From: Nitratireductor basaltis
GTDB taxonomy: Bacteria > Pseudomonadota > Alphaproteobacteria > Rhizobiales > Rhizobiaceae
Length of the DNA: 64,000 bases
Assembly (NCBI RefSeq): GCF_000733725.1
Contig: NZ_JMQM01000001.1
Location: 2,170,001-2,234,000, forward strand
Direction: 5' to 3'
Numbering within the stretch: position 1 is the stretch's first letter; the number at the start of each line of letters is the position of its first letter. Under the pieces are notes generated by a model. The model was not told the DNA's origin. It saw nothing but the letters and a program-made list of their open reading frames with translations, and made no database searches. Position numbers and translations under genes: made by a program. Of this stretch, positions 34,192-50,573 are shown piece after piece.

Positions 34192-35295
34192 TCACCCCAG
34201 CCAGTTCCCGCAACCCAGTTCCACCGGCCTTTTCTCCGCAATCGATTGCTGCGCTGCCAGCCCCATGGCGACTGCTTTCAGCCCGTCTTCCAGGCTGACT
34301 TCCGGTGCGCCGCCTTCGCGGACCAGGCGGTTGAAGCCTAGATGCTGGAAATAGGTGGAGCCGTGGTGGTCGCCCTGGGCGAGGATCTTGGGATCTACCT
34401 TCATGACCTCGATCTGCTCCTTGCGGGCAGCGCGGTCGGCCACGACATATTCGGCGTGTTTGACCTGGCCATCAGGCTCGAAGCGGCCGGGGCCCGGCAC
34501 GCGTGCCTCCAGCAGCGCGGTGGAGCCGATGGCGCTGACGCGTTCCTGAAAGTGGGAGCCTTCGGCAAACATGCAAAGCTCCAGCATGGCACTGACTCCA
34601 TTGGCGAATTCTATGGTCGTGAAACTGTGGTCGAGGATATCGGGCACGCGCCCGTCATAGGCTTCGTCCAGGTGGTTGATCGCCTGCCCGCCGATGGCAT
34701 GGATGCGCACGGGCTCCGACTTGATCATCAGGCGCATCAGGTCGAAGAAGTGGCAGCATTTTTCCACCAAAGTGCCGCCGGAGGAGATGTTGAAGCGGTT
34801 CCAGTTTCCGACCTTCTGCAGGAAGGGAAAGCGACGCTCGGTAATGGAGACCATGGCGAGCTTGCCGGCTCTGCCCGCTTCCAGATCCTCCAGCAGGCGG
34901 GTAACGCCCGGCATATAGCGATATTCCATTGCCACCCAAATCGGGGTCTGGAAGCGCGCCGCTTTTTCTGCGATGCGCCGCGCCTCTTCCCAGTCCTTCA
35001 CCACCGGCTTCTCGATGAGGATCGGGCGTTTCTGTTCGATAAGGGCGTCGAGGATGATGGCGTGGGTGTGGTTGGGGGAAGCTACAAGAAAAGCGTCGGC
35101 ATCGCTGTGTCTGAGCAGCTCCCGGAAGTCGCCGAAAAGCGCCACCTCGTTTGGCACCAGCGAGGCTGCCGCCGCGCGCATGGCCGCATCGGGTTCGGCG
35201 ATGGCGGTGATCTGCGCGCCCTCCACGAGGTTCAGATTGCGTATATGCTCCTGGCCCATCATGCCGGAGCCGATAATGGCGTATTTGACGGTCAT
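34192..35295 (-). CDS. Gfo/Idh/MocA family protein, candidate NAD-dependent sulfoquinovosidase-like enzyme
   Basis: A 367-residue NAD(P)-binding protein. The Rossmann motif IIGSGMMGQEH is at the N-terminus and the family EKP motif in ILIEKPVVKD at about residue 95. The C-terminal domain has FPFLQKVGNWNRFN and LVEKCCHFFDLM. It is the last gene of a minus-strand operon with a FucI/AraA-like isomerase (4-base overlap), LacD-type aldolase and YihV-like kinase. Gfo/Idh/MocA proteins in sulfo-EMP2-type clusters have been described as NAD-dependent sulfoquinovosidases (GH188); I propose that role from context only. An inositol- or sugar-dehydrogenase role is the alternative. No export signal, so it is cytoplasmic. 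Confidence 0.85.
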   Translation of the reverse strand: MTVKYAIIGSGMMGQEHIRNLNLVEGAQITAIAEPDAAMRAAAASLVPNEVALFGDFRELLRHSDADAFLVASPNHTHAIILDALIEQKRPILIEKPVVKDWEEARRIAEKAARFQTPIWVAMEYRYMPGVTRLLEDLEAGRAGKLAMVSITERRFPFLQKVGNWNRFNISSGGTLVEKCCHFFDLMRLMIKSEPVRIHAIGGQAINHLDEAYDGRVPDILDHSFTTIEFANGVSAMLELCMFAEGSHFQERVSAIGSTALLEARVPGPGRFEPDGQVKHAEYVVADRAARKEQIEVMKVDPKILAQGDHHGSTYFQHLGFNRLVREGGAPEVSLEDGLKAVAMGLAAQQSIAEKRPVELGCGNWLG

Positions 35296-36686
35296 TGCGT
35301 GAGGTCCAATACGGGGAGACCGAGCTCGTGCGCCACATGTTCAAGCGCTGCACGGTGGTCGCCATAAACGAGTGCGATATGGTGCTCGAGACCAGCTGCA
35401 AGCAGGTCGTCACGCACTTCAGCGGTGCGCCGATCCAGTTTCAGAACGCCGGATGTGCCGGAGAAGGAAGGTGGTGCTTCCTGCATCTCGCCACCGGCAA
35501 TGACCATGAACTGATGCCCGCCCGCCTGGCTGATGCGCGCCAGTGTGACGCGGCCCGCTTTCAGCGCGAACTGGAAGAGAAGCGGCATCCGACGGTTTGA
35601 ATGTATGGTCGCAGAGACAGGCTCAGCCTCACTTGCCATGGAGGCGGGTGCCTGTCCGCAATGCCAGAGAACCGTCGTGTCGGTTGTGGCATCCATATCA
35701 ACGATATCAGCCAAAAAGGCTGGCGCATCTGCGATGGTCTGCAGAAGATAGGAACTGAGAGCGCCATAGACATCCGCCTCGCAGGCGCATGGCGTACGCT
35801 TCTCGCCCATCATCGAAACAGGCCCGCAAACCGCGCCGCCATATTCGGTGAAGGTTTCGGGCCAGCAGCGGATTGCGAAAGCATCGAAGCGCCCTTGCCG
35901 CTTCAGCTGGTCCAAGGCATTGCGCAGACGCAGTGAACGGTCGAGTTGTGCCTGATCGACTTCGGCGAGACCGGCGACGTCGCGCAGGCCCTCACGCGTC
36001 TGCAGAACGTCACCGTCATCCACCGCACGGGCCTGGTCGAAGAGATGTGAAAGCGCGATCTGCTCCACGCTGACATCAGCAAGAGCGCTCAAACGCGCCG
36101 TGTCATAGGCGCAGGTGTCGAAACCTGCCGGATGCTCTCCGATGCGCCCGATGCGCATGCCGCGCAAAGCTTCAAGGCCGCGTTCGCCCTCCCGCGACAA
36201 GGCGGGTTCAGCCGGGCGCATGGCAGGTGCAGGTTGCGGTTGCGTTTTCAGCCAATCTTCCACTGCATAGGCGATGCCGGCGCCATCAGCCGCGAGGTAG
36301 AGCGGAACAATGGGCTTGGATCTGAGGCCCAAGGCATGGGCTGCGAGATTGAGACCGCAAAAGGCGTTGAGGCGCAGGCGCCCGCCGGTGCGTGGTTCGG
36401 GCAGCGCCCAAATGTGGAGCGGCGTGTCGAAGTGTTCCGCGATCATGCAGATTGCCTCGGCGTCGGTGAAGGTGGACTGGATGACCACCACGCCATCGGC
36501 TCGGGCCTCGCCCTGCGCCTCGATTTCCGCTGCGAGCGAAGCGTTGTCGAAGAGAATTTCTCCGTCACCGACAAGGCCAATGCCGCTTTCCCGCAGTGCT
36601 GCGATCGCCGCTGCCGAGCAGGCACGGGCATATTCGACATCGAATGTCGGGCGTCCGAGAACAAAGAGCCGATAGGTCCTAGCCAT
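35292..36686 (-). CDS. L-fucose/L-arabinose isomerase-like protein
   Basis: A 464-residue protein of the FucI/AraA fold. The N-terminal domain (RLFVLGRPTFDVEYARACSAAAI) resembles the substrate-recognition domain of this superfamily. The central AIRCWPETFTEYGGAVCGPVSMMGEK and the nearby CACEADVYGAL carry the metal-binding acidic residues, and HCGQAP is near residue 325. It would interconvert an aldose and a ketose. In a sulfo-EMP-type scheme it would convert sulfoquinovose to sulfofructose. I use the ATG at 36686, which overlaps the aldolase stop by eight bases; longer starts overlap more. The specific sugar is not proved by sequence. Confidence 0.8.
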   Translation of the reverse strand: MARTYRLFVLGRPTFDVEYARACSAAAIAALRESGIGLVGDGEILFDNASLAAEIEAQGEARADGVVVIQSTFTDAEAICMIAEHFDTPLHIWALPEPRTGGRLRLNAFCGLNLAAHALGLRSKPIVPLYLAADGAGIAYAVEDWLKTQPQPAPAMRPAEPALSREGERGLEALRGMRIGRIGEHPAGFDTCAYDTARLSALADVSVEQIALSHLFDQARAVDDGDVLQTREGLRDVAGLAEVDQAQLDRSLRLRNALDQLKRQGRFDAFAIRCWPETFTEYGGAVCGPVSMMGEKRTPCACEADVYGALSSYLLQTIADAPAFLADIVDMDATTDTTVLWHCGQAPASMASEAEPVSATIHSNRRMPLLFQFALKAGRVTLARISQAGGHQFMVIAGGEMQEAPPSFSGTSGVLKLDRRTAEVRDDLLAAGLEHHIALVYGDHRAALEHVAHELGLPVLDLTQ

Positions 36687-37713
36687 TCCCGAACCCCGCA
36701 TAGGCTGAGCGGAAACCGGCGTCACCGGGTTCCACCGTTTTCTGATCCCGATGAAGGGGATGCTCGTGCCACGGCGTGGCCGCCTCGTCGGTCAGGCGGT
36801 TGATCTCCTGCATGTATGAAACGGCCTCACCGCGCAGGCCGCTCTCGATTTCCGACCAATCGGGAAAGGCCTTGAAGGCCTCAAGCCATATAGCGCGACC
36901 GGCGAGATAGCCGGATGCACCGGCGGCATAGGCGTGCTTCAGGATCGTCTTGAATTCCGGCTTTCCGGCACCGGCAGACAGCATGACCCAAGGGCGACCA
37001 GTGAGGCGTCCCATTTCGTCGAAAAGCGACTGGGTCTGTTTCTCGTCACCGCCCAGATCACCGGCAGCAACAGGGCTTTCCAGCTTGAAGACATCGACGC
37101 CGTAGTCCGCCTTTGCAAACTCCTCCACGCTTTGAAGCACGTGGTCGGCGCGTTTGGTGCGCATCTCGACATAGTCGCGGGTCTGCTCGGCATCACTGGC
37201 CAAAGGATAGACCAGAAGCTCGAAGAGGAAGGGAATGTCGTAGCGGGCGCAGGCCTCGCCGATGCGTTTGGTAAAATCCTGCTGCGCGCGGCATATATCG
37301 GCATCGGCATCCGGGCGATACCAGGCCAGCACCTTGACGGCATCGCCACCGGCCCGCTTGATCTTCTCGACCGACCAGTCGTCGATTTCCGATGAAAGGC
37401 GACCACCTGGCTCTTCCCCGAAGACGGAATCCTCAAGGGTGAGGATCAGGCCCTTGCGGGGGTCCATGATGTCCACGGCACCAGGATAGGCGTAATGAGG
37501 GTCGAGAAGCATCGCCGTAGATTCACCCTGCAACGTCTCGACGAGCAGGCGCTTGAAGCGGGCGACATCGTCATAGGGCGCTTCGGATGTGCCGCGTGCC
37601 TTTGCGATCGGGTTCTTGATGGGCGGGCGCTGATCGACCGCCGTCATCTTGAAGCGCCCGCTGCCATCGGCCATGCGCCGCATGCCCCACAATTTGCCAG
37701 CCGTAAGGCTCAT
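36679..37713 (-). CDS. LacD/YihT-type class I aldolase
   Basis: A 344-residue aldolase of the tagatose-bisphosphate (LacD)/6-deoxy-6-sulfofructose-1-phosphate (YihT) family. Motifs are KMTAVDQRPP at residues 22-31, GGDAVKVLAWYRPD at about 122, the Schiff-base lysine in DVFKLESP (Lys210) and a C-terminal ASGYLAGRAIW whose Arg matches the phosphate/sulfonate-side Arg of YihT. It would split a 1-phosphorylated ketose into dihydroxyacetone phosphate and an aldehyde, here perhaps sulfolactaldehyde. It follows a PfkB kinase by 41 bases. The ATG at 37713 has AAAGGGAGGG. Tagatose bisphosphate is the alternative substrate, but no other tagatose or galactose gene is present. Confidence 0.85.
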   Translation of the reverse strand: MSLTAGKLWGMRRMADGSGRFKMTAVDQRPPIKNPIAKARGTSEAPYDDVARFKRLLVETLQGESTAMLLDPHYAYPGAVDIMDPRKGLILTLEDSVFGEEPGGRLSSEIDDWSVEKIKRAGGDAVKVLAWYRPDADADICRAQQDFTKRIGEACARYDIPFLFELLVYPLASDAEQTRDYVEMRTKRADHVLQSVEEFAKADYGVDVFKLESPVAAGDLGGDEKQTQSLFDEMGRLTGRPWVMLSAGAGKPEFKTILKHAYAAGASGYLAGRAIWLEAFKAFPDWSEIESGLRGEAVSYMQEINRLTDEAATPWHEHPLHRDQKTVEPGDAGFRSAYAGFGNG

Positions 37714-37754
37714 GAATCCCTCCCTTTGAGCGGCTTGGCCGCTCGACAATTCGT

Positions 37755-38660
37755 TCAGTTTGGTGCGCCACCGCCGGTCATCATTGCCAGCGTCTCCTCA
37801 CGACCCGGCAATGCGTCCGGCCCGGTGCCGTTGCGGCATTTGAGAGCGGCTGCGGCATTGGCGAAGCGGACGGCCTGGAAAACAGAGCGGCCCTCAGCAA
37901 GTCCCAACGTGAATGCGCCGTGCCAGACATCGCCAGCACCAAGTGTGTCCACCGCCCGCACAGCGAAAGCGGCCACATGGGAAACGGCCCCCTCGTCGAG
38001 ATAGATGACGCCTTTTTCCCCATGGGTAACGCCGGCCCAAGCCGCGTAGCGGCTGGCGCAGTAGCGCAGACCCGCAACCACATCCTCCTCACCGGAGAAG
38101 CTCTTGAGCCCCTGCGTGGAAAACGCGATATGGGTGGCTCCAGCCATGGCGCCATCCAGCGCCTCGAGATCACTTTCGGCATCCACCACGGCAGGAATGC
38201 CGCGCTTGCGTGCCAATGACACGAGCCTTTCCGCGCCTTCAGGCCAGCGCGGGTCGACAAGCACTGCGTCTACGCCGTCCAACTGATGATCGCCCAACAT
38301 TGCAGCCGTAACGGCCAATCCCTCGCCCCGAAAATTGACGATCTGGCGTTCTCCGTCCTCGTCGACATAGACGGAGGACACCGGAGCCACGGCGCCGGGC
38401 ATGATGACCGAAGGCGACCAATCGACACCCGCCTTCTCCAGCTCAGCCATTATGGCGTGCGAATTGGCATCGTCGCCAAGACGCGCGCAAAGGCTGGCAC
38501 CGCCGCCAAGTCGGCGAACGGCCAGTGCGGCCATGGTGGCAGGTCCGCCAATCTGGGTTCGATAGGCATCGGCGCGGTATTTTTCGCCTTCGCGCGGAAA
38601 CGCGCCGAGGTGAAAGACATGATCCAGAACCGCCATACCGAGTGTCAGGACACGAGCCAC
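37755..38660 (-). CDS. PfkB family sugar kinase, sulfofructose kinase (YihV)-like
   Basis: A 301-residue ribokinase-fold kinase with a GTG start. It has the PfkB C-terminal motif AVDTLGAGDVWHGAF, with the catalytic Asp, and the N-terminal IGGPATMAALA. It aligns well by eye with E. coli YihV throughout: EKYRADAY, VDPRWPEGAERL, HIAFSTQGLKSF, AAAALKC. Lys27, Asn109 and Arg138 fall at the positions I recall as the sulfonate contacts of YihV. It heads the minus-strand operon and would phosphorylate a ketose at C1. A TCTTATATATGT operator-like site lies ten bases upstream of the start. Substrate is inferred, not proved. Confidence 0.85.
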   Translation of the reverse strand: MARVLTLGMAVLDHVFHLGAFPREGEKYRADAYRTQIGGPATMAALAVRRLGGGASLCARLGDDANSHAIMAELEKAGVDWSPSVIMPGAVAPVSSVYVDEDGERQIVNFRGEGLAVTAAMLGDHQLDGVDAVLVDPRWPEGAERLVSLARKRGIPAVVDAESDLEALDGAMAGATHIAFSTQGLKSFSGEEDVVAGLRYCASRYAAWAGVTHGEKGVIYLDEGAVSHVAAFAVRAVDTLGAGDVWHGAFTLGLAEGRSVFQAVRFANAAAALKCRNGTGPDALPGREETLAMMTGGGAPN

Positions 38661-38669
38661 ATCATCTAC

Positions 38670-38723
38670 TCTTATATATGTTCGTGCAGATATCTTCTCT
38701 GCCTACAAAATTCCTATATAAGA
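38670..38723. promoter_or_regulatory. Two GntR operator-like 12-mers between the kinase and gntR
   Basis: TCTTATATATGT at 38670-38681 (10 of 12 against TCTTATATAAGA) and TCCTATATAAGA at 38712-38723 (11 of 12) lie 30 bases apart in the divergent region of the kinase operon and its GntR regulator. The same palindrome recurs at 39633 and, exactly, at 52204. Confidence 0.6.
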
Positions 38724-38826
38724 ATTGCAAGTCTTTTACAAGACCTGTCTCAAACTCCACTCCTAGCGTGTGGCAGCAAGACGCGGTATAGACATGCAAC
38801 TGATGTAAAAGACCGGCAGCTGCCTG

Positions 38827-39594
38827 ATGTCCGACAAGACCGATGCCAAAGCATCTTCATCCAAGGCGGGAACAGGCACGGGCGTGGAACTGGGGTTTAC
38901 GCCGCTTTATCTGCAGGTCCGCCAGAAGATGCTGGACAAGATCATCGCAGGCACCTGGCAGCCCGGCACGGCACTGCCTTCCGAACAGCAACTCGCCCTG
39001 CAAATGGGTGTATCGCAGGGGACACTGCGCAAGGCACTAGACGCGCTAGCCTCGGATCGCGTGATCGTCAGGCACCAGGGGCGCGGCACCTTTGTTGCCG
39101 AGCATGACCAGCGGCGCACGCTTTTCCAGTTCTTCAAGATTGCCAGTGACAGCGACGGGCGGATGCCGCCGGAAACACTGTTTTGCCAGGTGGCAGAACG
39201 TGCGGCCGAATCGGAAGAGAGCCAGGCCCTGCAACTTGCGGGTGACAAGGTTTGGCACATCCACCGGCACCGAGCGCTTAGGGGGCGGGTACTGCTTCTC
39301 GAAGATATCATGGTCGACCGGGATCGGTTTCCCGCCCTGGATGACAGGGTGCCGCTGCCTAACAATATCTACGAGCTCTACGAGCGGCACTTCGCCATCA
39401 CCGTGGCCCACGCACGCGAACGCCTGAAAGCAATCAGCGCAAATGAGAAACAGGCCGAGCTCTTGGGCTGCGATGTGGGGCATGCACTGCTCCAGATCGA
39501 ACGAACCGCCACGGCGCTGAACGGTTCCCCCATCGAATTCCGCCGCACCCTATGCCTCACGGATCACTATCACTATTCGAGCGATCTCAGATAA
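38827..39594 (+). CDS. GntR/UTRA family transcriptional regulator
   Basis: A 255-residue regulator with an N-terminal GntR winged helix (about residues 30-95: PLYLQVRQKMLDKII, ALQMGVSQGTLRKALDALAS, RHQGRGTFV) and a C-terminal UTRA ligand-binding domain. It lies between the kinase operon (divergent) and the NagB-like/ChbG/TRAP operon (same strand). It is a clear paralog of the regulator at 52311, sharing GVSQGT(L/V)RKALD and the downstream ILFQFF/TLFQFFK segment. Both flanking intergenic regions carry TATATAAGA sites, so it is probably the local repressor, released by a sugar phosphate or a sulfonated intermediate. Confidence 0.9.
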   Translation: MSDKTDAKASSSKAGTGTGVELGFTPLYLQVRQKMLDKIIAGTWQPGTALPSEQQLALQMGVSQGTLRKALDALASDRVIVRHQGRGTFVAEHDQRRTLFQFFKIASDSDGRMPPETLFCQVAERAAESEESQALQLAGDKVWHIHRHRALRGRVLLLEDIMVDRDRFPALDDRVPLPNNIYELYERHFAITVAHARERLKAISANEKQAELLGCDVGHALLQIERTATALNGSPIEFRRTLCLTDHYHYSSDLR

Positions 39595-39632: not shown

Positions 39633-39653
39633 TCATATATAAGAGTTATAAGA
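39633..39653. promoter_or_regulatory. GntR operator-like site upstream of the NagB-like operon
   Basis: TCATATATAAGA at 39633-39644 differs by one base from the perfect palindrome TCTTATATAAGA found upstream of suyA, and a second half-site TTATAAGA follows at 39646-39653. It is 31-51 bases before the start of the NagB-like gene. Confidence 0.6.
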
Positions 39654-39683: not shown

Positions 39684-40535
39684 TTGCGGGAATATGAGGG
39701 TGTCGATGCTGCCACGCTTGCAGCTCTACGCGCCAGTGAGGAGGAGCTTGTTTCCCGGGCCGGAACACGGCTGACGGTGCACGAGGACGCGCGTTCGCTG
39801 CGGGCGGCGATGGCTGACACGCTTTTCGCGGATATCCATGACTGCCTTTCCGGCAAGGGCCGCTGCAGCCTCATCGTGCCGGTTGGACCGGTCGGACAAT
39901 ACGCGCTTCTGGCGGAACGCTGCCTGCACGAGAAGGTCTCCCTCTCCAAGACAACCATAATTGTCATGGACGAATATCTGACGCTGGACAACCAGTGGAT
40001 TGACGAGGGCGATCCCTTGAGTTTCCGCGCTCACTTGAAGCGAAATCTCATCGACCTCCTGCCTGAGGACATGCGCCCTTCCCTGCTCGTACCGGACCCG
40101 CATCGTCTGGCCGCAATCCCCGACCATATTGCCGAACATGGGCTGGACTTCACCTATGCAGGGGTTGGGATAACCGGTCATCTGGCGTTCAACGATCCGA
40201 TCTCCGACTGCAGGAATCCGGAAGAATTTGCATCCCTGCCGACCCGCATAGTGCAGCTTTCGGAACAGACGCGCCTGATCAATTCGGTCACGGCTGCACG
40301 CGGCAACATCCAGCGCATTCCGCATATGGCCGTGACCGTCGGCATGAATGAAATTCTCTCTGCAAGAAAGCTGCGGGTCTGGATGAACCGCGACTGGCAG
40401 AGTGCCGCCATCCGGCGCATGCTGCTTGGCCCGCAATCGGCGGACTTTCCAGCCTCACTTGTGCAACGTCACGACAATCTGACGGTGGATGTGACGCGGG
40501 AGGTTCTGTCCCTGCCAGAACCGGGCCTGCGATAG
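39684..40535 (+). CDS. Divergent glucosamine-6-phosphate isomerase (NagB)-like protein
   Basis: A 283-residue protein of the NagB/RpiA fold with a TTG start (GGAGGAG seven bases upstream; no better start). The NagB base motif is kept as VMDEYLTLD. The second catalytic motif reads GVGITGHLAFNDP where NagB has N-D-G-H-I-A-F-N-E: the Asp is Thr, the His is kept and the Glu is Asp. The enzyme may thus deaminate/isomerise a different amino sugar or use a different ring-opening step. Its stop abuts the start of a ChbG-like gene, and TRAP transporter genes follow. In this context it could yield sulfofructose from an amino sulfosugar, which is speculative. Confidence 0.8.
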   Translation: MREYEGVDAATLAALRASEEELVSRAGTRLTVHEDARSLRAAMADTLFADIHDCLSGKGRCSLIVPVGPVGQYALLAERCLHEKVSLSKTTIIVMDEYLTLDNQWIDEGDPLSFRAHLKRNLIDLLPEDMRPSLLVPDPHRLAAIPDHIAEHGLDFTYAGVGITGHLAFNDPISDCRNPEEFASLPTRIVQLSEQTRLINSVTAARGNIQRIPHMAVTVGMNEILSARKLRVWMNRDWQSAAIRRMLLGPQSADFPASLVQRHDNLTVDVTREVLSLPEPGLR

Positions 40536-41393
40536 ATGAGCGGCGAGAAGACATTCCTGCCGCATCTCGATGATGTCGGCGCAACTGCCGGCTCCGTGAT
40601 TGCATGGAAGGCGCTGCGCGAGGCAGGAACCGTCACCAGCGCGTCCGTGATGGTGCCATGCCCCTACTACCCCATGGCGGTTGAGGACTTCCAGGCGGAC
40701 CCCGCACAGGATCTGGGCATCCATATCACCCTGACATCCGAATGGAGCCGTTATCGCTGGCGCCCGCTGATCGGGAATGTCGGAGGCCTGTGCGATGCGG
40801 ATGGTTATTTCCACCGCCGTCCGCAGGATGTGCTGACGCATGCCGATCCGATTGCCGTGGAAGAGGAGATGCAGGCGCAGATAGAGCGTGCATTTCAGGA
40901 CGGGATCAAGCCGACCCATATCGATGCGCATATGGGCACCGCGTTTCTTACGCCCTTCATGGACGGGTTGTGGAAGCTCGCCGAGCGATATCAGCTTGCC
41001 GTCCCTTTCTGCCGTGACAGTTCCGCCCTGTTCAAGGCGGTACGCGCGGAAGATGCCGATCTCGGACTATATCGGGAACTGACTGCCCAGGCCGATGCTG
41101 CAGGCGAGATCGTCTTTGACAGCTTCCAGATCGGTTTCACGCCGCAGAATCATCCCGCTGATGTGTTCTTTGCCGAGATGCTGGGCCAGGCACCGGGTGG
41201 CCTACACTGGTTGGCACTTCACGCCAATGCGCCGGATGATACGGCGCATTTCGCGCCGCATATGGTGTGGCCACGCACGCAGGAACACGCCTTGTTCTCC
41301 GCTCCCGAAAGCCGCAAAGTCTTTGCCGGCAGCCGTCTCGTCAACTGGCATGCCCTTGGCCCCAAGCGTGGAGCGCGTGCATGCGCCTGTTGA
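40536..41393 (+). CDS. ChbG/YdjC family carbohydrate deacetylase-like protein
   Basis: A 285-residue member of the ChbG/YdjC family, which removes N-acetyl groups from chitooligosaccharides and related amino sugars. The metal ligands are recognisable: HLDDVG (family NADDFG), LGIHITL and PTHIDAHMG. It starts directly after the NagB-like stop and overlaps the TRAP small permease by 13 bases, so it is part of that operon. With the NagB-like gene it suggests an N-acylated amino sugar substrate. No signal peptide is seen, so it acts in the cytoplasm after uptake. The substrate could also be non-amino, as the family is broad. Confidence 0.85.
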   Translation: MSGEKTFLPHLDDVGATAGSVIAWKALREAGTVTSASVMVPCPYYPMAVEDFQADPAQDLGIHITLTSEWSRYRWRPLIGNVGGLCDADGYFHRRPQDVLTHADPIAVEEEMQAQIERAFQDGIKPTHIDAHMGTAFLTPFMDGLWKLAERYQLAVPFCRDSSALFKAVRAEDADLGLYRELTAQADAAGEIVFDSFQIGFTPQNHPADVFFAEMLGQAPGGLHWLALHANAPDDTAHFAPHMVWPRTQEHALFSAPESRKVFAGSRLVNWHALGPKRGARACAC

Positions 41394-42025
41394 TCAGCCT
41401 CATCTCCCGCATCAACCGGATCATGTCGGAGACAGGTGTCGCGCTTGCCTGCCTGTTTCTCGTGATGATGACGGCCGCCGTCATCCTGCAGGTCGTCAGC
41501 CGCGAAATGCGCGCTCCCATCGGTTGGACCGAGGAGGTCGCACTGGCATCGATGGTCTGGGTATCCTTTCTGGTTGGCCCCTGGGCCTACAGGCACCACC
41601 AGTTCACGCGCATTGACGTGGCGGTGGAGATGATGTCGACGCGCAGCCGCGCGATCCTCAACATCATGATACATCTCTTCGAAGCCGCCCTGCTTGTCGG
41701 TGCGATCTATTACAGCTGGCGCTTTTTCACCGGCGGCAACAGCCTGCTGCCGCAAACGACGCGCCTTGTGCGCGGGCTTGCTGAACCCATTATCGGCGCC
41801 GATGCCGCAGGCGCGATCGTGGTGAAGAACAAGTATGTCTATTTCATACTTCCAGCCGGATTTACCGGCCTTCTGATGGTTGCTCTTGAACATCTGCTGC
41901 GTACGCTGCGGGCCCTGCTAACCGGCCAGGAAGAGCATCGGAATTTCGACCTGGACGGAACAGCGCGCACGCCTGAAGGTGATGCTGGCGGCAGCCGGTC
42001 GGACCAGACCGGCAGGGAGGGCTGA
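41381..42025 (+). CDS. TRAP transporter small permease (DctQ)
   Basis: A 214-residue membrane protein with four predicted helices and the DctQ-type core ALACLFLVMMTAAVILQVVSREMRAPIGWTEEVA. TRAP small subunits stabilise the large permease. An additional hydrophilic C-terminal tail of about 35 residues is present. I start at the ATG at 41381, overlapping the ChbG-like gene by 13 bases. The DctM gene follows by four bases. Confidence 0.9.
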   Translation: MRLLISLISRINRIMSETGVALACLFLVMMTAAVILQVVSREMRAPIGWTEEVALASMVWVSFLVGPWAYRHHQFTRIDVAVEMMSTRSRAILNIMIHLFEAALLVGAIYYSWRFFTGGNSLLPQTTRLVRGLAEPIIGADAAGAIVVKNKYVYFILPAGFTGLLMVALEHLLRTLRALLTGQEEHRNFDLDGTARTPEGDAGGSRSDQTGREG

Positions 42026-42029
42026 GCTC

Positions 42030-43391
42030 ATGGGTGGTTTCGCCTTCGCGATCAAAGGACTGGCGGTCTTCTGGGGCTTCCTCATCCTTCTGGGGATCGG
42101 CGTTCCGGTATTCTATGCCATGATCGGTGCCGGGGTTTTCCAGCTCTGGCAGATCGACCGCATGGCGTTCCTCGGCATGCAGGTGAACCGGGTCTATTCC
42201 GGCATTTCCTCATTCCCGATCATGGCGGTGCCCTTCTTCATCCTTGCTGGCGAGATCATGAATTCGGGCATGGTCACGCGCGCCCTCGTTGATTTCTCGC
42301 GCGCCATGCTTGGCCATATCCGTGGCGGACTGGCTCACGTGAATATCGCCGCCAGCGTTCTGTTCGCCGGACTCTCAGGCTCGGCCGTGGCCGACACGTC
42401 GGCGCTTGGCTCCATGCTGATCCCGGCCATGGAAAAGAACGGCTATTCGCGCAAGTTTGCAGCGGCAATCACTGCGGCAAGCTCGGTCATCGGGCCGGTC
42501 ATCCCGCCATCGGGCCTGATGGTGCTCTATGCGTTTGTCATGAATGTCGATGTCGCGCGCATGTTTCTGGGCGGTATCATCCCCGGCCTGATGCTGGCGG
42601 GGTCGCTGATGGTCGTGACCGCCTTCATGGCCAAGCGATACGATTTCCCTGTCGCCAATGAGCGCATGGCGTGGAGCCAGCGCGGTCGGGCAGGACTGCG
42701 GGCCTTCTTTCCGCTGCTCACACCGGTAATTCTTCTGGGGGGCATTCTTTCAGGCTATTTCACGCCCACAGAAGCGGCGGCTGTGGCCGTTGCATATGCG
42801 CTGTTTCTGAACATCGCGGTCAAGATCGCCCATCGCATGGGCCTGCTTGACGAAGACGGTTTCGGGCTGAGAGCATTTATCGGCATTCTGCGGCGCACGG
42901 CCATCCAGTCGGGTGTGGTGCTGCTTCTGGTCGGCGTGGCCACCGGGTTCAGCCAGATCGTCGCCATTGCTGGTGTTCCTGCCACGCTGACGAACATGAT
43001 GCTGACCGTCTCGGACAACATCATCGTCTTCCTGCTCATGGTGAACATCTTCCTGTTCATCGTCGGCATGGTGCTTGATGCGGGGCCGGCGATCCTGATC
43101 CTCGGGCCAATCCTTGCACCGGCTGCTGCTGCCTATGGCATGGATCCGGTGCACTTCGCCGTCATGATGTGCCTCAATGTCACGGTGGGTCTGGCGACAC
43201 CGCCCATGGGGCTGGTGCTGTTCGTCGCCACTTCGATTTCCGGAGCGCGCTTTGCCGATATCGTGCGCGCCATCATCCCGTTCCTAATCGCCGAGGTCCT
43301 GGTCATCCTGTTGGTCGCCTATGTGCCGATCTTCACGCTTGGTCTGCCCTGGCTCTGGGACAATTGGGGGAACCTGTTTTCCGGCGGCTGA
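42030..43391 (+). CDS. TRAP transporter large permease (DctM)
   Basis: A 453-residue membrane protein with about twelve segments. DctM motifs are LFAGLSGSAVADTSALGSMLIPAM, SSVIGPVIPPSGLMVLYA and LNVTVGLATPPMGLVLFV. It forms the ion-coupled channel of the transporter. The ATG at 42030 is preceded by GGGAGGG and lies four bases after dctQ. Sodium-driven uptake of an organic acid, sugar acid or sulfonate is expected. Confidence 0.95.
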   Translation: MGGFAFAIKGLAVFWGFLILLGIGVPVFYAMIGAGVFQLWQIDRMAFLGMQVNRVYSGISSFPIMAVPFFILAGEIMNSGMVTRALVDFSRAMLGHIRGGLAHVNIAASVLFAGLSGSAVADTSALGSMLIPAMEKNGYSRKFAAAITAASSVIGPVIPPSGLMVLYAFVMNVDVARMFLGGIIPGLMLAGSLMVVTAFMAKRYDFPVANERMAWSQRGRAGLRAFFPLLTPVILLGGILSGYFTPTEAAAVAVAYALFLNIAVKIAHRMGLLDEDGFGLRAFIGILRRTAIQSGVVLLLVGVATGFSQIVAIAGVPATLTNMMLTVSDNIIVFLLMVNIFLFIVGMVLDAGPAILILGPILAPAAAAYGMDPVHFAVMMCLNVTVGLATPPMGLVLFVATSISGARFADIVRAIIPFLIAEVLVILLVAYVPIFTLGLPWLWDNWGNLFSGG

Positions 43392-43459
43392 TCGCTTCCG
43401 GCAATGATTTCACAAGAGCGCTGCCAAGGCGCCTTTTCAAACAACCGAAGGAGGAAGAG

Positions 43460-44521
43460 ATGAAGTTTCTCAAACATGCACTCGCCGCATCCGCACTGGC
43501 GCTCGGGCTTGCCAGCGGAGCATCCGCGCAGGAGGAGCCGGAATTCAAGCTGGTCACGCCGCTTGCGACCGGCGAAGACAACTACAACTACCAGGCCATG
43601 CAGGCCTTCCGGAACCATGTGTTCAACAAGTCGAACGGTCGCGTGGACATCGAGATCTATACCGGCGGCACGCTTTGTGCTTCCGGCCGCGAATGCTTCG
43701 AGGGCATGCAGGCCGGGCTCGTGGACATCTACCAGTCGAATTTCGGTGAGCCGGGCAATCTGTGGCCTGCCTTTGCCGGTCTCGACCTGCCCTATATGCT
43801 GCGCGACGATCAGGTTGCCGAATGCGTCTTCGACGATGAAGAATTCATGGCCACCCTGCGTCAGGGCATGATGGAGCAGACAGGCAATATCCGCCTGATG
43901 GTCATCTCCAACTCCGGCGGCTGGCGCAATTTTGCCACCACGAACAAGCCGATCCTCAAGCCGGAAGACGTGAAGGGCATGAAGCTGCGCACGATCCCTG
44001 CGGAAATCCAGCAGGAGCTGGTACGCCAGCTTGGCGGCGCGCCGACCGGCATTTCATGGCCGGAGGTTTACACTTCGCTTGCGACCGGTGTCGTGGAAGG
44101 CACGAAGAACGGCATCACCGATATCGTGACCATGAATTTCCACGAGCATCTCAAGCACATCACGTTGGACGGGCACGCCTATATGGGCGGAACCTGGTTC
44201 ATCAACAATGACAAGTTCATGGCCATGGACGAGGATCTGCGCAAGATCGTTTTCGAGGGCTTCGAGGTCATCGAGCAGTATCTGCGTTCCTACCCGAAAT
44301 ATCACGATGTGAAGTCCTTCAAAGCCTTCACCGATGCCGGCGGCACGATTCACAGCCTGACCAACGAGGAAAAGGCAGCCTTCCGCGAGGCGGCAAGCGG
44401 CATGGAAGAGTGGTTCACCAGCCAGGATCCTGCCAATCAGGAATTCCTCGACAGCTACAAAGCAGCCATTTCGCAGTGTGAGGCCGCTGTCGATGAAAAG
44501 CTTCAGGCGGTGGTTCAGTAA
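43460..44521 (+). CDS. TRAP transporter substrate-binding protein (DctP)
   Basis: A 353-residue periplasmic protein with a clear Sec signal (MKFLKHALAASALALGLASGASAQ, cleavage after ASA). The DctP-family core has the ELVRQLGGAPTGISWPEVYTSLATGVVEG segment with the conserved arginine region before it (LRTIPAEIQ), which normally contacts the carboxylate or sulfonate. Here the sequence is unusually acidic at the N-terminus. GGAGGAAG precedes the ATG. It ends the ChbG/TRAP operon and is followed by a strong terminator. The ligand is unknown. Confidence 0.92.
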   Translation: MKFLKHALAASALALGLASGASAQEEPEFKLVTPLATGEDNYNYQAMQAFRNHVFNKSNGRVDIEIYTGGTLCASGRECFEGMQAGLVDIYQSNFGEPGNLWPAFAGLDLPYMLRDDQVAECVFDDEEFMATLRQGMMEQTGNIRLMVISNSGGWRNFATTNKPILKPEDVKGMKLRTIPAEIQQELVRQLGGAPTGISWPEVYTSLATGVVEGTKNGITDIVTMNFHEHLKHITLDGHAYMGGTWFINNDKFMAMDEDLRKIVFEGFEVIEQYLRSYPKYHDVKSFKAFTDAGGTIHSLTNEEKAAFREAASGMEEWFTSQDPANQEFLDSYKAAISQCEAAVDEKLQAVVQ

Positions 44522-44601: not shown

Positions 44602-45609
44602 TCAGACATAGCCGACGGTGAGTATCGCAAAGACCATCAGGAAGAGCGTGATGGCGACGACCACGCTGACATGGCCCGCACCGAGTGCGAACATGTCCTT
44701 GAGTGCCGTGCGGGCGCCAAGTGCTGCGATGGCTGTAATCAGCATCCAGCGCGATGCTTCCGAGAGAAAGTCGGCCACCATTGAAGGCAGGAGGCCGAAG
44801 CTGTTGGCTGCTGCGAGGGCTGCGAAAAGCAGGACGAAGCCTGGCAGGGTCACGCGCCCGCGCCCTCCCTCTCCGCGCATGGAAAAGAGCATGATGGCGA
44901 TGATGACGACCGGCAACAGGGCGACACGCAGTAGCTTGACCAGCGTGGCAATGTCGCCCGCGGTATCGGACACCGCATAACCGGCACCGACAACCTGCGC
45001 CACGTCGTGAATGGTGGCACCTATCATGATGCCGATGGCGCGTTCGTCGAAGCCGAGAGCCGTGAAGAGTATGGGATAGGCGATCATGGCCACGGTCGAC
45101 AGGCCGGTCACGGCAATGACCGTGAAGAGCGTGTTCTGTTCGCGATCCGATCGCTCCGGAAGGACAGCCGAGATGGCGAGTGCTGCAGAGGCACCGCAGA
45201 TCGCAACAGCACCACCGGTCAGAAGGCCGAAGGTCCAGTGGCGCCGAAAGAGTTTGGCCATCAGGAGCCCGCAACCGATCGTGAGCACCACACTCATCAG
45301 CACCAGGAGCACGGGCTTGGGACCGAGCGTCATCATCTGCTCGAAGGTGATGCGTGCGCCAAGCAGGCCCACGCCCAGGCGCAGGAGCGACTTCGAGGCG
45401 AACTCAATGCCTTCAACTGCGCGACCTTCCTCCGACATGAAGTGAAATGCCATGCCTAGAAGAAGCGCGAACAGCATGACGGGCGCGCCGTAATGCTCCG
45501 ACAGAAAATTCGCCGCCAGTGCCAGCACGAGGGCGAACATGAGTCCCGGCATGTACCGCTTCAAGGTATCGAAACGGTCCGGGCTCTTGAGCGTTGTCAT
45601 GAGTGTCAT
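44602..45609 (-). CDS. suyZ: YeiH family exporter; probable sulfite exporter SuyZ
   Basis: A 335-residue membrane protein of the YeiH (PF03601) family with about ten hydrophobic segments and the motifs GGAVAICGASAALAISAVLPE and GATIHDVAQVVGAGYAVS. In sulfolactate degraders, a member of this family beside suyAB is called SuyZ and is proposed to export sulfite. Here it closes the operon suyAB-tctCAB-slcC-comC. Its ATG is two bases after the comC stop. Sulfate or sulfite specificity is not shown by sequence; the role is from genetic context. Confidence 0.85.
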   Translation of the reverse strand: MTLMTTLKSPDRFDTLKRYMPGLMFALVLALAANFLSEHYGAPVMLFALLLGMAFHFMSEEGRAVEGIEFASKSLLRLGVGLLGARITFEQMMTLGPKPVLLVLMSVVLTIGCGLLMAKLFRRHWTFGLLTGGAVAICGASAALAISAVLPERSDREQNTLFTVIAVTGLSTVAMIAYPILFTALGFDERAIGIMIGATIHDVAQVVGAGYAVSDTAGDIATLVKLLRVALLPVVIIAIMLFSMRGEGGRGRVTLPGFVLLFAALAAANSFGLLPSMVADFLSEASRWMLITAIAALGARTALKDMFALGAGHVSVVVAITLFLMVFAILTVGYV

Positions 45610-45611: not shown

Positions 45612-46622
45612 TCAGCTTGTGGCTTCAGCGCGTCCCAGCGCTTCGATCTGTTGTAGAAGCGCGTCATCGACTTCGATACCATTCGCTTCCAGTTCGGCTG
45701 ACAGCGCCTGCCGTCTGCGGCCGGGCAACCTTGTCCCATCCATGCCTTCTATCGCTTCGGCGAGCACGGAGAAGCGCGCCAGCGCATGATCGCCGAAGGC
45801 GGAGGGGTCGATGGCGATGATGATCTGCCCGGTGCCGGGCGCCTGACCATCGGCATCAAAGAACGAGGTGGCTTCGTAGCCATAGTTGGCGCCGGTGAGG
45901 CCAGCGCACAGGAGCTCCACCATGATCGCGAGAGCCGTTCCCTTGGCGTCGCCCATCGGCACCATGGTGCCTTTCATGGCCGCACTCGGGTCGGTGGTCG
46001 GATTGCCGTCGGCGTCAAGCGCCCAGCCCTCTGGAATGGGTTTGCCCTGCTGTTCGGCAGCCATGATCTTGCCGCGTGCCACCTTCGAAAGGGAAATGTC
46101 GACGACGACCGGTTCGCCATCGGCAAGTGGCGCGGCGAAGGCTATCGGGTCGGTGCCGAAGAGCGGTTTCTTTCCACCCCAGGGCGCGATCGCCGCAGGG
46201 GCATTGGCGAATAGCAGACCGATCAGCCCCTTCTGCGCCAGTGCTTCGACGGTGATGCCTGCCACGCCGCAATGGTGGGAGCGGTGGATACCGGCCATGG
46301 CAATGCCATTGGTCCTGGCTGCTTTCGGAAGCCATTCCAACGCCTTCTCGATCGCCGGATATGCAAAACCGTTTGCAGCATCGATCCTGAGTGCACCCGG
46401 GCGCATCTCCTGCGCCACGGGCTCTGCCATGCCGTCGACCTTGCCCGACAGTGCCTGCGCGCAATAGGAGGGCATGCGCCTCAGCCCATGACCGGCCTGA
46501 CCGGCAAGCTCGGCGCCCAGCAGCGCGCGCGCCACTGCCTGCGCGTTTTCGCGCGATGTGTGGCAGCGCTCCAGCGTGGATATGACGAGGTCGGTGACCT
46601 GCTGTGGGGTCATGGTGCTCAC
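45612..46622 (-). CDS. comC: Ldh/MDH-type 2-hydroxyacid dehydrogenase; probable (R)-sulfolactate dehydrogenase ComC
   Basis: A 336-residue NAD(P)-dependent dehydrogenase of the malate/L-sulfolactate family (Ldh_2), not the Rossmann-type lactate dehydrogenase. Family signatures are AGQAGHGLRRMPSY, HRSHHCGVAGITVEALAQKG and the NAD-site GGKKPLFGTDPIAFA. With SlcC it would interconvert the two enantiomers of sulfolactate via sulfopyruvate, so that both can enter the R-specific SuyAB lyase. It overlaps slcC by four bases. Confidence in the family is high; the substrate is by synteny. Confidence 0.88.
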   Translation of the reverse strand: MSTMTPQQVTDLVISTLERCHTSRENAQAVARALLGAELAGQAGHGLRRMPSYCAQALSGKVDGMAEPVAQEMRPGALRIDAANGFAYPAIEKALEWLPKAARTNGIAMAGIHRSHHCGVAGITVEALAQKGLIGLLFANAPAAIAPWGGKKPLFGTDPIAFAAPLADGEPVVVDISLSKVARGKIMAAEQQGKPIPEGWALDADGNPTTDPSAAMKGTMVPMGDAKGTALAIMVELLCAGLTGANYGYEATSFFDADGQAPGTGQIIIAIDPSAFGDHALARFSVLAEAIEGMDGTRLPGRRRQALSAELEANGIEVDDALLQQIEALGRAEATS

Positions 46623-47551
46623 TGCGAGCCTCCCAGATGTTCCAAGACTTTTTTCGCAGTAAGCGCACTTACACGCACATTGGATTCGGCGGTAACGCCA
46701 GCGATGTGGGGTGTTAGAACCAGATTCTCCAAACCAGCGAATTTTTGGCCGGAAGTTGCGGAAAGTGGCTCTTCCTCGAAAACATCGAGTGCTGCGCCTG
46801 CCAATTGGCCGTTGCGCAACGCGTCGGCCAAAGCCTGTTCATCAACCACACCGCCGCGGGCGGCATTGATAAGGACGGCGTCGTTCTTCATGCCAGCCAG
46901 AGCCTTGGCATCGATCATGTGGCGCGTCTTGGGGGTAAGTGGCGTGTGAAGGCTGATGACGTCCGCCTCGCCGAGCAATTGCGGCAGATCGCGCTTCTGC
47001 GCGAGCTTCCATGCTGCATCACCTTCATCGAGGAACGGGTCGAAGGCGATGACCTTCATGCCGAGCGCATCGGCCCTGCGCGCGACTTCGCGCGCGATGG
47101 CGCCGAAGCCGACCAGCCCGATCACCTTGCCGGAAATCTCGCGACCGATCAGCCGCGAACGCGGCCATTTGCCGTCGATGACGTGCGAAGTCGACAGATA
47201 AGCCTCGCGCATCAAGATGAAGGCGGTGGTGATGACATATTCGGCAACCGCCAGATCGTTGGCACCGGTGGCCGGGTAGACCGCGACATCGCGGCCTTCG
47301 CACGCTTCGAGGTCGATATTGTCGAGACCGACGCCAAGTCGCCCCACGCATTCCAGCTTCTGTGCCGCGCCCAGCAGATCGCCGCGCACCTGCGTGCGGT
47401 TGCGCACGATCAGCGCGCGCGCATCCTGCAGCTTCTCCGCCAGCTCCTGCGGACGGTCGACAAGGTCGGGGTCATAGAGGGTTTCATATCGAGCACGCAG
47501 TGTCTCGACGGCGTCTTCGTCCATGAATTCGGAAATGACGATCTCAGGCAT
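46619..47551 (-). CDS. slcC: D-isomer-specific 2-hydroxyacid dehydrogenase; probable (S)-sulfolactate dehydrogenase SlcC
   Basis: A 310-residue Rossmann-type hydroxyacid dehydrogenase. The NAD motif VIGLVGFGAIAREVA lies near residue 143. The catalytic Arg is in INAARGGVVDE, and Glu and His follow in FEEEPL and LTPHIAG. In known sulfolactate operons, the enzyme at this position (SlcC) oxidises (S)-sulfolactate to sulfopyruvate. It lies after tctB by 21 bases and overlaps comC by four bases. D-3-phosphoglycerate or other hydroxyacid activity is the generic alternative. Confidence 0.88.
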   Translation of the reverse strand: MPEIVISEFMDEDAVETLRARYETLYDPDLVDRPQELAEKLQDARALIVRNRTQVRGDLLGAAQKLECVGRLGVGLDNIDLEACEGRDVAVYPATGANDLAVAEYVITTAFILMREAYLSTSHVIDGKWPRSRLIGREISGKVIGLVGFGAIAREVARRADALGMKVIAFDPFLDEGDAAWKLAQKRDLPQLLGEADVISLHTPLTPKTRHMIDAKALAGMKNDAVLINAARGGVVDEQALADALRNGQLAGAALDVFEEEPLSATSGQKFAGLENLVLTPHIAGVTAESNVRVSALTAKKVLEHLGGSQ

Positions 47552-47572: not shown

Positions 47573-48046
47573 TCAAAAGAAAATGCCGCGCGGCATGGGG
47601 ATATGAAGAAGCTTGCTCATCAGCAGGTAGAACGAAACCACCATGCCAAGGACAGCGCCGAGATAGAGGGCGAGGCGCTGCGGCGGGATGCGCTCGAAAA
47701 GGCCGGTAAACATCAGGATCACGCAGGCAGTCAGGCTGGTGACAAACATGCCGACCAGCGGAAAGAGCAGAGCCCAACCGATCATCACCGCAAGAAGTGT
47801 CAGGCGGCGGCCCAGGCCCTCCGCCTGCTCGCTCGCGCTGGAGGTGGTCTCCACCGCCTCCCCGCGATAGCCGCGCAACGCGGCAACCACATAGATGGCA
47901 GAGAGTATCGCGAGGGCTGCGCCCACGGTGCGCGGGAACATGGCAGCCATTCGCGACATCTCGAAGCTCATGGCAAAGACACCGGCGCCGATAAAGAAGA
48001 AGAACAGTGAACCTATCACTCCACCGATGTCACGATCAGATGTCAT
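47573..48046 (-). CDS. Tripartite tricarboxylate transporter small membrane subunit (TctB-like)
   Basis: A 157-residue membrane protein with four hydrophobic segments (for example SLFFFFIGAGVFAMSF and LTLLAVMIGWALLFPLVGMFVTSL), the architecture of TctB. AAGGAGG precedes the ATG at 48046. It overlaps the end of tctA by 11 bases. In the sulfolactate operon of Chromohalobacter the transporter is encoded by slcHFG, and this would be the small membrane component. The letter assignment is uncertain, so no symbol is given. Confidence 0.85.
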   Translation of the reverse strand: MTSDRDIGGVIGSLFFFFIGAGVFAMSFEMSRMAAMFPRTVGAALAILSAIYVVAALRGYRGEAVETTSSASEQAEGLGRRLTLLAVMIGWALLFPLVGMFVTSLTACVILMFTGLFERIPPQRLALYLGAVLGMVVSFYLLMSKLLHIPMPRGIFF

Positions 48047-49562: not shown

Positions 49563-49625
49563 TGGAAGCTCCCTCGAGATGAGTGGAAGCTGGCGGCGAA
49601 AACGGGTTCCGCCGCCAGGAGTGTT

Positions 49626-50573
49626 TTACTGCAGCGAACCCAGTTTGCGGGCCGTGTCTTCATAGACCTTCTGGCGCTCGGCCATGAAGGCATCCATCTC
49701 GTTGTAAGGCACGTTCAGCATCGCAAATCCTGCATCTTCCATCTCCTTGATGAATTCAGGATCCGCATTGATCTTGCCGATGATGTCGGACAGCTGCTGG
49801 CGGACTTCCTCGGGTGTGGACTTCGGCACCGCGATGCCGCGATAGGCACCGCCGACCATATCGATCCCCAGCTCCTTGAAGGTCGGCACGTCGGGGAAGA
49901 GCGGGTGACGCTCGTCCTGGGCAACGGCCAGCATGCGCACCTTGTCGCCCTGCCCTGCTGCCACAGTCGTGTAGCCCCACAGCAGTTCTACCTCGCCGCC
50001 GAGCAGGCCGGGGATGGTCGCGCCCGTGCCGGTATAGGGGATGTAGGTCATTTCAGCACCGGTGAGATCGGCAAAGCGCTGATGCGCGATATGGTTTGCC
50101 GTGTTGGTCGCCACGCCACCGACGGTGAGTGCGCCTGGATTTTCCTTGGACGCGTCGATGACATCCTGAACCGTCTTGAATTCGCTGTCTGCGCGCACGA
50201 GCAGGGCGTCAGGCGTGAAATGGAACATGTAGATATTCGTCAGATCCTCGGTCTTGTAACCGGGGTTCTGGAGAAGCGGCTGCAGGATGATATGCGGCAG
50301 GTTGGTACCCATGATCGTGTAGCCGTCGCCCGGCTGGTCATTGAGCACCGACCAGGCCTGCGCACCACCGGCACCCGCCTGATACTGGATGATGAGATCT
50401 TCGCCCGTGATCTTCTTGAAGTAGGGCTGCTGCAGACGGGCGGAGATATCGCTTTCACCACCTGCATTGAACGGAATGATGTAGTTCACCGGCTTGTCCG
50501 GAAATGCCTGAGCGGCCCCGGCTGTCATGGCGAAAGCAGCTGCGGCTGCCAGCAAAGTCAGTTTCTTCAGCAT
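49626..50573 (-). CDS. Tripartite tricarboxylate transporter substrate-binding protein (TctC-like)
   Basis: A 315-residue periplasmic protein with a Sec signal (MLKKLTLLAAAAAFAMTAGAAQA). The TctC/Bug fold is shown by FPDKPVNYIIPFNAGGESDISAR at the mature start, and by YQAGAGGAQAWSVLNDQPGDGYTIMGT. It captures the substrate, inferred to be sulfolactate, for TctAB. I start at the ATG at 50573 with GGGAGG. A strong hairpin separates it from suyB, so expression may be partly independent of the lyase genes. A longer upstream reading lacks a signal peptide. Confidence 0.92.
   Translation of the reverse strand: MLKKLTLLAAAAAFAMTAGAAQAFPDKPVNYIIPFNAGGESDISARLQQPYFKKITGEDLIIQYQAGAGGAQAWSVLNDQPGDGYTIMGTNLPHIILQPLLQNPGYKTEDLTNIYMFHFTPDALLVRADSEFKTVQDVIDASKENPGALTVGGVATNTANHIAHQRFADLTGAEMTYIPYTGTGATIPGLLGGEVELLWGYTTVAAGQGDKVRMLAVAQDERHPLFPDVPTFKELGIDMVGGAYRGIAVPKSTPEEVRQQLSDIIGKINADPEFIKEMEDAGFAMLNVPYNEMDAFMAERQKVYEDTARKLGSLQ

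Follow-up and report, generated by a model that had tools for sequence, protein, structure and literature searches.

A predicted hybrid sulfo-EMP operon for sulfoquinovose glycosides beside sulfolactate genes in Nitratireductor basaltis

Sulfoquinovose (SQ), the sugar of the plant sulfolipid, whose production is put at 10 billion tons a year (PMC10755693), is degraded in Escherichia coli and Arthrobacter by the sulfoglycolytic Embden–Meyerhof–Parnas (sulfo-EMP) pathway. Sulfo-EMP2 is defined by the kinase SqiK (PF00365) together with the class II aldolase SqiA (PF01116) and is placed in Firmicutes, according to PMC9594981. Hybrid sulfo-EMP clusters have been reported in Proteobacteria (PMC10599462; PMC12890257, citing Sharma 2023), and an actinobacterial cluster is described that joins nearly the same enzymes as those treated here to a sulfolactate sulfolyase (PMC11465081). 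Rhizobia and the Roseobacter clade are credited with the oxygenolytic sulfo-SMO (sulfoquinovose monooxygenase) route (PMC13372026). Here we analyse a four-gene operon in a 64,000-nucleotide stretch of the Nitratireductor basaltis contig NZ_JMQM01000001.1 (positions 2,170,001 to 2,234,000, hereafter the window). With a probability of about 0.82, we read it as a hybrid sulfo-EMP operon for SQ glycosides that forms one regulon with a neighbouring sulfolactate mineralisation operon. We infer every activity in this reading, as well as import and regulation, from homology, conserved residues, synteny and operator sites.

Four adjacent minus-strand open reading frames (ORFs; 34192-35295, 35292-36725, 36679-37749 and 37755-38660) fall, from 34192 to 38660, into the Pfam-type families GFO_IDH_MocA, Fucose_iso_C, DeoC/LacD and PfkB, in agreement with a preliminary description of the sequence that had placed four consecutive genes there:

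37755..38660, minus strand: PfkB kinase of the YihV type, proposed sulfofructose 1-kinase (PF00294; top PDB match YihV, 7ag6; K27/N109/R138; tree)
36679..37713, minus strand: class I aldolase of the LacD/PRK12858 (DUF2090) subfamily, proposed sulfofructose-1-phosphate aldolase (NF009498; 8tnf; K210)
35292..36725, minus strand: FucI/AraA-fold isomerase of a divergent SqvD/SftI type, proposed SQ isomerase (NF048012; AlphaFold2 model)
34192..35295, minus strand: predicted GH188-type (glycoside hydrolase family 188) NAD-dependent sulfoquinovosidase (8qc3 and 8qc2 at 365 and 352 bits; catalytic and sulfonate-binding residues)

The isomerase and GH188 genes overlap by 4 bases, as in a translationally coupled operon; with the ATG at 37713 as our chosen start of the aldolase, the kinase and aldolase genes stand 41 bases apart. 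By eye, the real start of the isomerase is probably an internal ATG near 36686.

In the proposed route, a tripartite ATP-independent periplasmic (TRAP) carrier would import SQ or SQ-glycerol and the GH188 protein would free SQ, which the SqvD-like isomerase would convert to sulfofructose. The YihV-like kinase would then form sulfofructose 1-phosphate, and the class I aldolase, through Lys210, would cleave it to dihydroxyacetone phosphate and sulfolactaldehyde (SLA). An aldehyde dehydrogenase (ALDH) encoded elsewhere (candidate at C1:853958-855388) would oxidise SLA to sulfolactate, which SlcC and ComC would racemise and SuyAB would cleave to pyruvate and sulfite, with two related GntR regulators acting at TCTTATATAAGA sites.

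This route is of a known kind, hybrid sulfo-EMP, built from an uncommon mix of enzymes, and it has printed precedents in Proteobacteria and actinobacteria. It shares with the sulfo-EMP pathway of E. coli and Arthrobacter a YihV-type PF00294 kinase, a PF01791 class I aldolase and the predicted intermediates; Arthrobacter, too, has a GH188 enzyme, along with an SLA dehydrogenase (PMC8873060, PMC10755693). It differs in that the isomerase is SqvD-like, not YihS, the aldolase belongs to the 8tnf/PRK12858 branch, and the pathway is coupled to SuyAB mineralisation and TRAP import. The hybrid clusters of Proteobacteria and Actinobacteria likewise combine EMP and EMP2 enzymes, but the cited portions of their text (PMC10599462; PMC12890257) are without this gene set, the GntR operator and the TRAP/NagB-like branch. 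Actinobacterial clusters with a Tyr variant of GH188 share with the window GH188, a sulfofructose kinase, a sulfofructose phosphate aldolase, a fucose isomerase, SuyAB and a phosphoglycerate-dehydrogenase-like gene; they differ in their host phylum, in using an ATP-binding cassette (ABC) transporter and in having Tyr at 170, where the window protein has Leu159 (PMC11465081).

We next asked how widely the module occurs. Whole-genome searches recovered the isomerase in 40 of 297 genomes of the same family and 4 of 398 of a phylum sample at E 1e-60, and at 1e-10 in 7 of 61 relatives and 11 of 385 genomes of a class sample. A scan of named genomes gave at least 541 confirmed isomerase relatives. 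We kept the best 80 loci, with the isomerase as the sole criterion of choice; by record title these are alphaproteobacterial, except four from Gammaproteobacteria (L065, L093, L101 and L102). Genes in these loci were called with profiles built from their own recurring ORFs, and linkage was counted in the 54 loci with at least 5 kb on both sides. Among these, 51 had the kinase, 48 the aldolase and 45 all three core genes; GH188 was found in 49 and a GH31 gene instead in 3 (either in 52, both in none, neither in 2). Further linked genes were SlcC (40), mutarotase (33), ALDH (21), SuyB (17) and sulfopyruvate decarboxylase (10), for which one subunit from each of two relatives passed NCBI curated cut-offs. 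Either suyAB or comDE (sulfopyruvate decarboxylase) was present in 27 loci, never both, and any C3-sulfonate gene in 42. The module thus recurs in Alphaproteobacteria, and this linkage ties it to C3 sulfonates, that is, to SLA. If it works as proposed, many Alphaproteobacteria would be able, within a single cell, to degrade SQ either to pyruvate plus sulfite or to sulfoacetaldehyde.

The kinase matched E. coli YihV best among PDB sequences (phmmer, 170.7 bits, residues 1-293 on 1-293), as the full-length likeness first seen by eye had suggested; its second match was 2rbc, a 'sugar kinase' (160.7 bits). Aligned with YihV from E. coli K-12, it is 34% identical, and the columns of YihV K27, N109 and R138 hold K, N and R at the same residue numbers, as originally proposed. 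These three are presumably sulfonate contacts of YihV, as the preliminary description also proposed. In the operon kinases (84 rows, 80 of them distinct because a contig fetched twice gave four repeats), K27 is K in 82 rows with gaps in the other two (79 of 80 distinct), N109 is N in 70 (66 of 80 distinct; the remainder A, G, S or T) and R138 is R in 84 of 84 (80 of 80). The nine PfkB paralogues of the same genome gave 0/9, 0/9 and 1/9, counting gaps (3, 3 and 1) as misses. In a tree of 37 rows (29 of 85 operon rows including the window, YihV and seven of the nine paralogues, the last with long-branch warnings), YihV fell inside the operon kinases, beside those of L021 and L023; a split with support of 97/98 set the paralogues apart from them. 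We therefore class the protein, on its sequence, as a putative YihV-type PF00294 kinase of the kind used in E. coli sulfo-EMP.

The Gfo/Idh/MocA protein matched the structures 8zn9, 8qc3 and 8qc2 at 381 to 352 bits, with all other PDB matches below 75 bits. Entries 8qc2 and 8qc3 are NAD-dependent GH188 sulfoquinovosidases whose key residues are named in PMC10755693. Counted by hand on the structure-match alignment (paper numbering in brackets), the window protein keeps K96 (K107), Y125 (Y136), R155 (R166), L159 (L170), K161 (K172), E178 (E189), H182 (H193) and H310 (H321); by the same count, the Glu163 of the cited text maps one residue before a conserved Glu. All 78 rows (74 distinct) retain the catalytic residues and the R166/L170/K172 sulfonate triad, as does the window protein. 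The gene, which had been said to recall sulfo-EMP2, is instead predicted to encode a GH188-type NAD-dependent sulfoquinovosidase and is no hallmark of that pathway.

At L070, L093 and L104, and also at L021 and L022, a GH31 gene stands in place of GH188 and may encode a sulfoglycosidase from a different branch of GH31. We rejected this GH31 family (cluster 26) as proof of a classical sulfoquinovosidase: the member scanned (L104) is nearer the YicI alpha-xylosidase (455 bits) than PRK10426 (210 bits), presumably the YihQ model.

The sole NCBIfam match of the isomerase is the sulfoquinovose isomerase SftI/SqvD model NF048012 (E 8.5e-74, 248.9 bits). Four full-length relatives scored 270-299 bits against it and three distant partial ones 68-85, and PDB sequences gave no match at E up to 1. 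An AlphaFold2 model built from 35 rows (mean pLDDT 92.5) matched L-arabinose isomerase (E 5e-23) and L-fucose isomerase (E 1e-16) at TM-scores of about 0.5-0.6, so the predicted fold is FucI/AraA and not the YihS type of E. coli sulfo-EMP. Residues E290, E316, D318, H355, H375, H448 and H449 do not vary across the 35 rows, and some of them may bind metal.

SuyAB-, SlcC- and ComC-like genes adjoin in the window, assigned by family and arrangement rather than by direct alignment to reference SuyAB. These and the regulatory elements are as follows:

38661..38826, no strand: divergent promoter region between kinase and GntR1, with operator-like sites at 38670 (2 mismatches), 38712 (1) and 38732 (2)
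38827..39594, plus strand: GntR/UTRA regulator 1, GntR1 (PF00392 and PF07702)
39633..39644, no strand: operator-like site TCATATATAAGA, 1 mismatch, upstream of the NagB-like gene (palindrome search; a like site precedes NagB-like genes in L027, which equals L159, and L158)
44602..45609, minus strand: YeiH/PF03601 membrane protein, possible sulfite/sulfate exporter, presumably SuyZ-like
45612..46622, minus strand: predicted ComC-like sulfolactate dehydrogenase (PF02615)
46619..47551, minus strand: SlcC-like D-2-hydroxyacid dehydrogenase (PF02826/PF00389)
47573..50576, minus strand: tripartite tricarboxylate-type transporter TctB-TctA-TctC, likely for sulfolactate uptake (family scan)
50674..51855, minus strand: SuyB-like large subunit of sulfolactate sulfolyase (PF04295 and PF20629; conserved cluster 13 across loci)
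51877..52161, minus strand: SuyA-like small subunit (TIGR03248 N-terminal part, E 4.4e-10; no Pfam match in the family scan; conserved cluster 14)
52204..52215, no strand: exact operator palindrome TCTTATATAAGA between suyA and GntR2 (palindrome search)
52311..53018, plus strand: GntR/UTRA-type regulator 2, GntR2 (by family; 42% identical to GntR1)

We then explored whether the two operons share regulatory sites. With up to two mismatches, the palindrome occurs five times in the window (0.11 expected): three sites lie between kinase and GntR1, one between GntR1 and the NagB-like gene, and the exact one between suyA and GntR2. At one mismatch the genome holds four sites, three of them in the window, and the chance of at least three of four falling within 15 kb is about 3e-7. 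The fourth stands just upstream of an apparent gyrA (by eye), for which no tie to the pathway was established.

Across the 80 named loci, the palindrome (at most one mismatch) was found in 29 of 29 loci with GntR (73 sites in 516,064 bases) and in none of the 51 others (910,315 bases). Sites lay at GntR/Suy (29), kinase (20), TRAP (13), NagB-like (1) and other places (10), preceding the kinase in 20 of the 28 GntR loci with a kinase called, and control palindromes from the same letters (29 draws, 18 distinct) gave at most 1 hit. Among the genomes of eight relatives, seven hold 20 copies of the exact word in total and the eighth (G568) has none; the reversed word has no hit. Of these 20 copies, 17 belong to the locus, counting one that lies just beyond the stretch first examined; the other three, one in each of three relatives, lie off it, near a GH31 gene and preceding what looks like a gene for an ABC binding protein (by eye). 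The binding-protein-like gene that we scanned had no NCBIfam match. A shared-word comparison of the two intergenic regions did no better than shuffles, so the link is seen by the palindrome search only. Since the palindrome precedes the kinase, suyAB and NagB-like/deacetylase/TRAP operons, one regulon probably joins them, and both GntR regulators probably act at its sites. The connection to a sulfolactate operon noted earlier is thus borne out by the gene families, synteny and shared operator sites, and if the module works as proposed, the 12-base operator would offer a sequence handle for part of such Alphaproteobacteria.

The candidate for the SLA step (L117) is 67% identical to the ALDH in a relative's operon. 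Eight of twelve genome hits were examined, with positions set by motif rather than by alignment to RlGabD: L117 and L119 have both Arg171 and Arg289, L117 and L120 have Cys297, and L117 alone has all three. The Arg pair is proposed for RlGabD, and equivalent Arg residues bind succinate semialdehyde in human succinic semialdehyde dehydrogenase (PMC10599462).

At L135 (G000:C1:846000-865900), the ALDH candidate lies beside carrier and FabF-like genes like those that flank the operon in L029, L031, L047 and L050 (by eye), as though the core operon had moved away from here or never arrived.

Several observations weigh against the hybrid sulfo-EMP reading. The kinase operon has neither an SLA dehydrogenase nor a mutarotase, and their best homologues lie elsewhere in the genome; as the Arg pair is common to SLA dehydrogenase and succinic semialdehyde dehydrogenase, it cannot separate the two activities. 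Fourteen of 84 operon kinase rows have a residue other than N at position N109, the isomerase score falls below the NF048012 equivalog cut-off of 700 bits, and the aldolase is nearer LacD and 8tnf than YihT in PDB scores. The four genomic palindrome sites hardly exceed the three of a reversed-pattern control, so that their placement alone is unusual. Finally, the substrate could be another 6-sulfosugar.

We consider it unlikely that the route serves another 6-sulfohexose, such as sulfofucose processed via sulfotagatose. In the sulfofucose degrader Paracoccus wurundjeri, the sulfolactate cluster includes PF00294 and PF01791 genes, and the authors of that study weighed a sulfotagatose route (PMC12421959). 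Its tandem sulfofucolytic-sulfolactate sulfolyase pathway resembles our locus in having SlcC, ComC and SuyAB beside sugar genes, with full breakdown in one cell; it differs in that sulfofucose takes an Entner–Doudoroff (ED) upper route and the kinase/aldolase pair is uninduced on sulfofucose (PMC12421959). The GH188 enzymes studied so far are SQ glycosidases (PMC10755693), and E189, the C4-OH contact, is kept in the window. In P. wurundjeri the pair has no linked isomerase, a YihS-family homologue lies elsewhere and there is no growth on SQ (PMC12421959), which fits, without proving, a need for a linked isomerase.

Ordinary tagatose or fructose phosphate catabolism, in which a LacD-type tagatose-bisphosphate aldolase, a PfkB ketose kinase and a FucI-like isomerase would work on sugars without a sulfonate, is suggested by the aldolase. 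This protein passes the NCBIfam 'tagatose 1,6-diphosphate aldolase' model PRK12858 (NF009498; 338.4 bits, cut-off 184), and it matches 8tnf at 326 bits and LacD types at 119-133, above YihT types at 72-76; a literature search on 8TNF gave nothing useful. The YihT likeness first proposed holds for the family (PF01791) and the Schiff-base lysine and is tempered by 27% identity and by the higher LacD scores. YihT Lys193 aligns with Lys210, which is Lys in 82 of 82 operon aldolase rows (78 distinct), and YihT R253 with R273 in the GRA(I/V)W motif, both as anticipated, yet the substrate cannot be read from family and residue matches. Against unsulfonated substrates stand the grouping of the kinase with YihV, the sulfonate-binding triad of the GH188 partner, an isomerase whose one NCBIfam match is a sulfoquinovose isomerase, and the linkage and common operator with sulfolactate genes, and we regard this explanation as highly improbable.

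A sulfo-EMP2 operon, proposed in the preliminary description as a variant known from actinobacteria, has a FucI-fold SqvD-like isomerase (NF048012) in its favour, but the operon has a PfkB kinase (PF00294 only) and a class I PF01791 aldolase in place of the PF00365 and PF01116 enzymes of that pathway (PMC9594981), and we reject this membership as next to impossible. The sulfo-EMP logic, the kinase with its residues and the sulfolactate link of that description stand, and its sulfo-EMP2 label does not.

Its suggestion that the operon is new in Alphaproteobacteria is weakened by the hybrid clusters (PMC10599462), the actinobacterial cluster (PMC11465081) and a Figure 5 legend in which Jannaschia, a Paracoccaceae bacterium and Mesorhizobium are given as sources of GH188 clusters (PMC10755693); the clusters of that figure may be the same operon. 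The literature searched, which did not extend to Figure 5 itself or to key papers of 2021 and 2023, gave no description of this alphaproteobacterial operon or its operator. A 2026 survey used a reference-protein search at 30% identity, 1e-50 and 70% coverage (PMC13372026); if its sulfo-EMP references are YihS and YihT, a FucI-fold isomerase and an aldolase as divergent as ours would escape it.

Divergent from the kinase operon, and inside the same predicted regulon, lie five genes (39684-44521):

39684..40535, plus strand: NagB-like deaminase/isomerase with altered phosphate site (family, structure and residue comparison)
40536..41393, plus strand: YdjC-family carbohydrate deacetylase (PF04794; 8jqe)
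41381..42025 (start chosen), plus strand: TRAP small permease DctQ (PF04290 on the longer ORF 41267-42022)
42033..43391 (start chosen), plus strand: TRAP large permease DctM (TIGR00786, 396 bits, on the longer ORF 41979-43388)
43454..44521 (start chosen), plus strand: TRAP solute-binding protein DctP (PF03480 on the longer ORF 43169-44518)

The NagB-like protein has a predicted NagB fold (1dea, E 1.1e-17; model pLDDT 81.8 from 5 rows). It keeps the catalytic Asp72 (D96) and His143 (H166) of NagB and has Thr for Asp141; across its clade, position 148 is D or E and position 141 is T or N. At E. coli NagB 43-44, Arg172 and Lys208, presumably phosphate binders, the window protein has a gap, T and Q, and would thus lack the NagB phosphate site. 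Clade rows are likewise gapped at 43-44; position 172 is T, N or F in them, and 208 is Q in 14 of 14 rows (13 distinct genomes besides the window). Two weak outlier rows keep K208.

These features raise the tentative and rather doubtful possibility of a second entry, for an N-acetylated 6-deoxy-6-sulfo-amino sugar deaminated to sulfofructose without a prior kinase. The TRAP carrier would import it, YdjC deacetylate it and the NagB-like protein turn 6-sulfoglucosamine straight into sulfofructose, by analogy with glucosamine 6-phosphate to fructose 6-phosphate, for entry at the sulfofructose kinase. A NagB-like gene shares the locus with the kinase operon in the window, L027 (= L159), L038, L062, L098 and L158, relatives found, L158 excepted, through the isomerase; the operator precedes it in the window, L027 and L158. 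Seven of ten NagB-like genomes (E 1e-20) among the 297 of the family also have the isomerase at E 1e-60 (Fisher p = 4e-5; 2e-4 without the window genome), and the three without it are G571 and G695 (weak hits) and G672 (fragmentary). In the class sample of 385, with 4 NagB-like and 11 isomerase genomes, the window genome is the only overlap, which argues against a strict link. A second NagB-like context, with ABC genes and another Gfo gene, YdjC too in three loci and a sulfatase in L155 (the only locus searched for one), makes a 6-O-sulfated or neutral amino sugar also possible. A term search of titles and abstract openings found no catabolism of such a sulfonated amino sugar, returning papers on O-sulfated N-acetylglucosamine and other subjects. 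If true, this branch would imply a sulfonated amino sugar that has so far gone uncharted.

At L156 (G456), 19 bases separate the isomerase from a YdjC-like ORF and a sugar ABC operon that includes a NagB-like gene, with IlvD/EDD and SMP-30 lactonase genes nearby, a different arrangement that may combine EMP- and ED-type steps. Window positions 53596-60240 hold class V aminotransferase-like, FAD/NAD-binding oxidoreductase-like and octopine dehydrogenase-like genes and then a polyamine-type ABC transporter (by eye), an unrelated-looking block. A MauG-like di-haem protein gene (for example L051:5637-7430) lies near the operon in 31 of the 54 well-flanked loci, often between the TRAP genes and the kinase.

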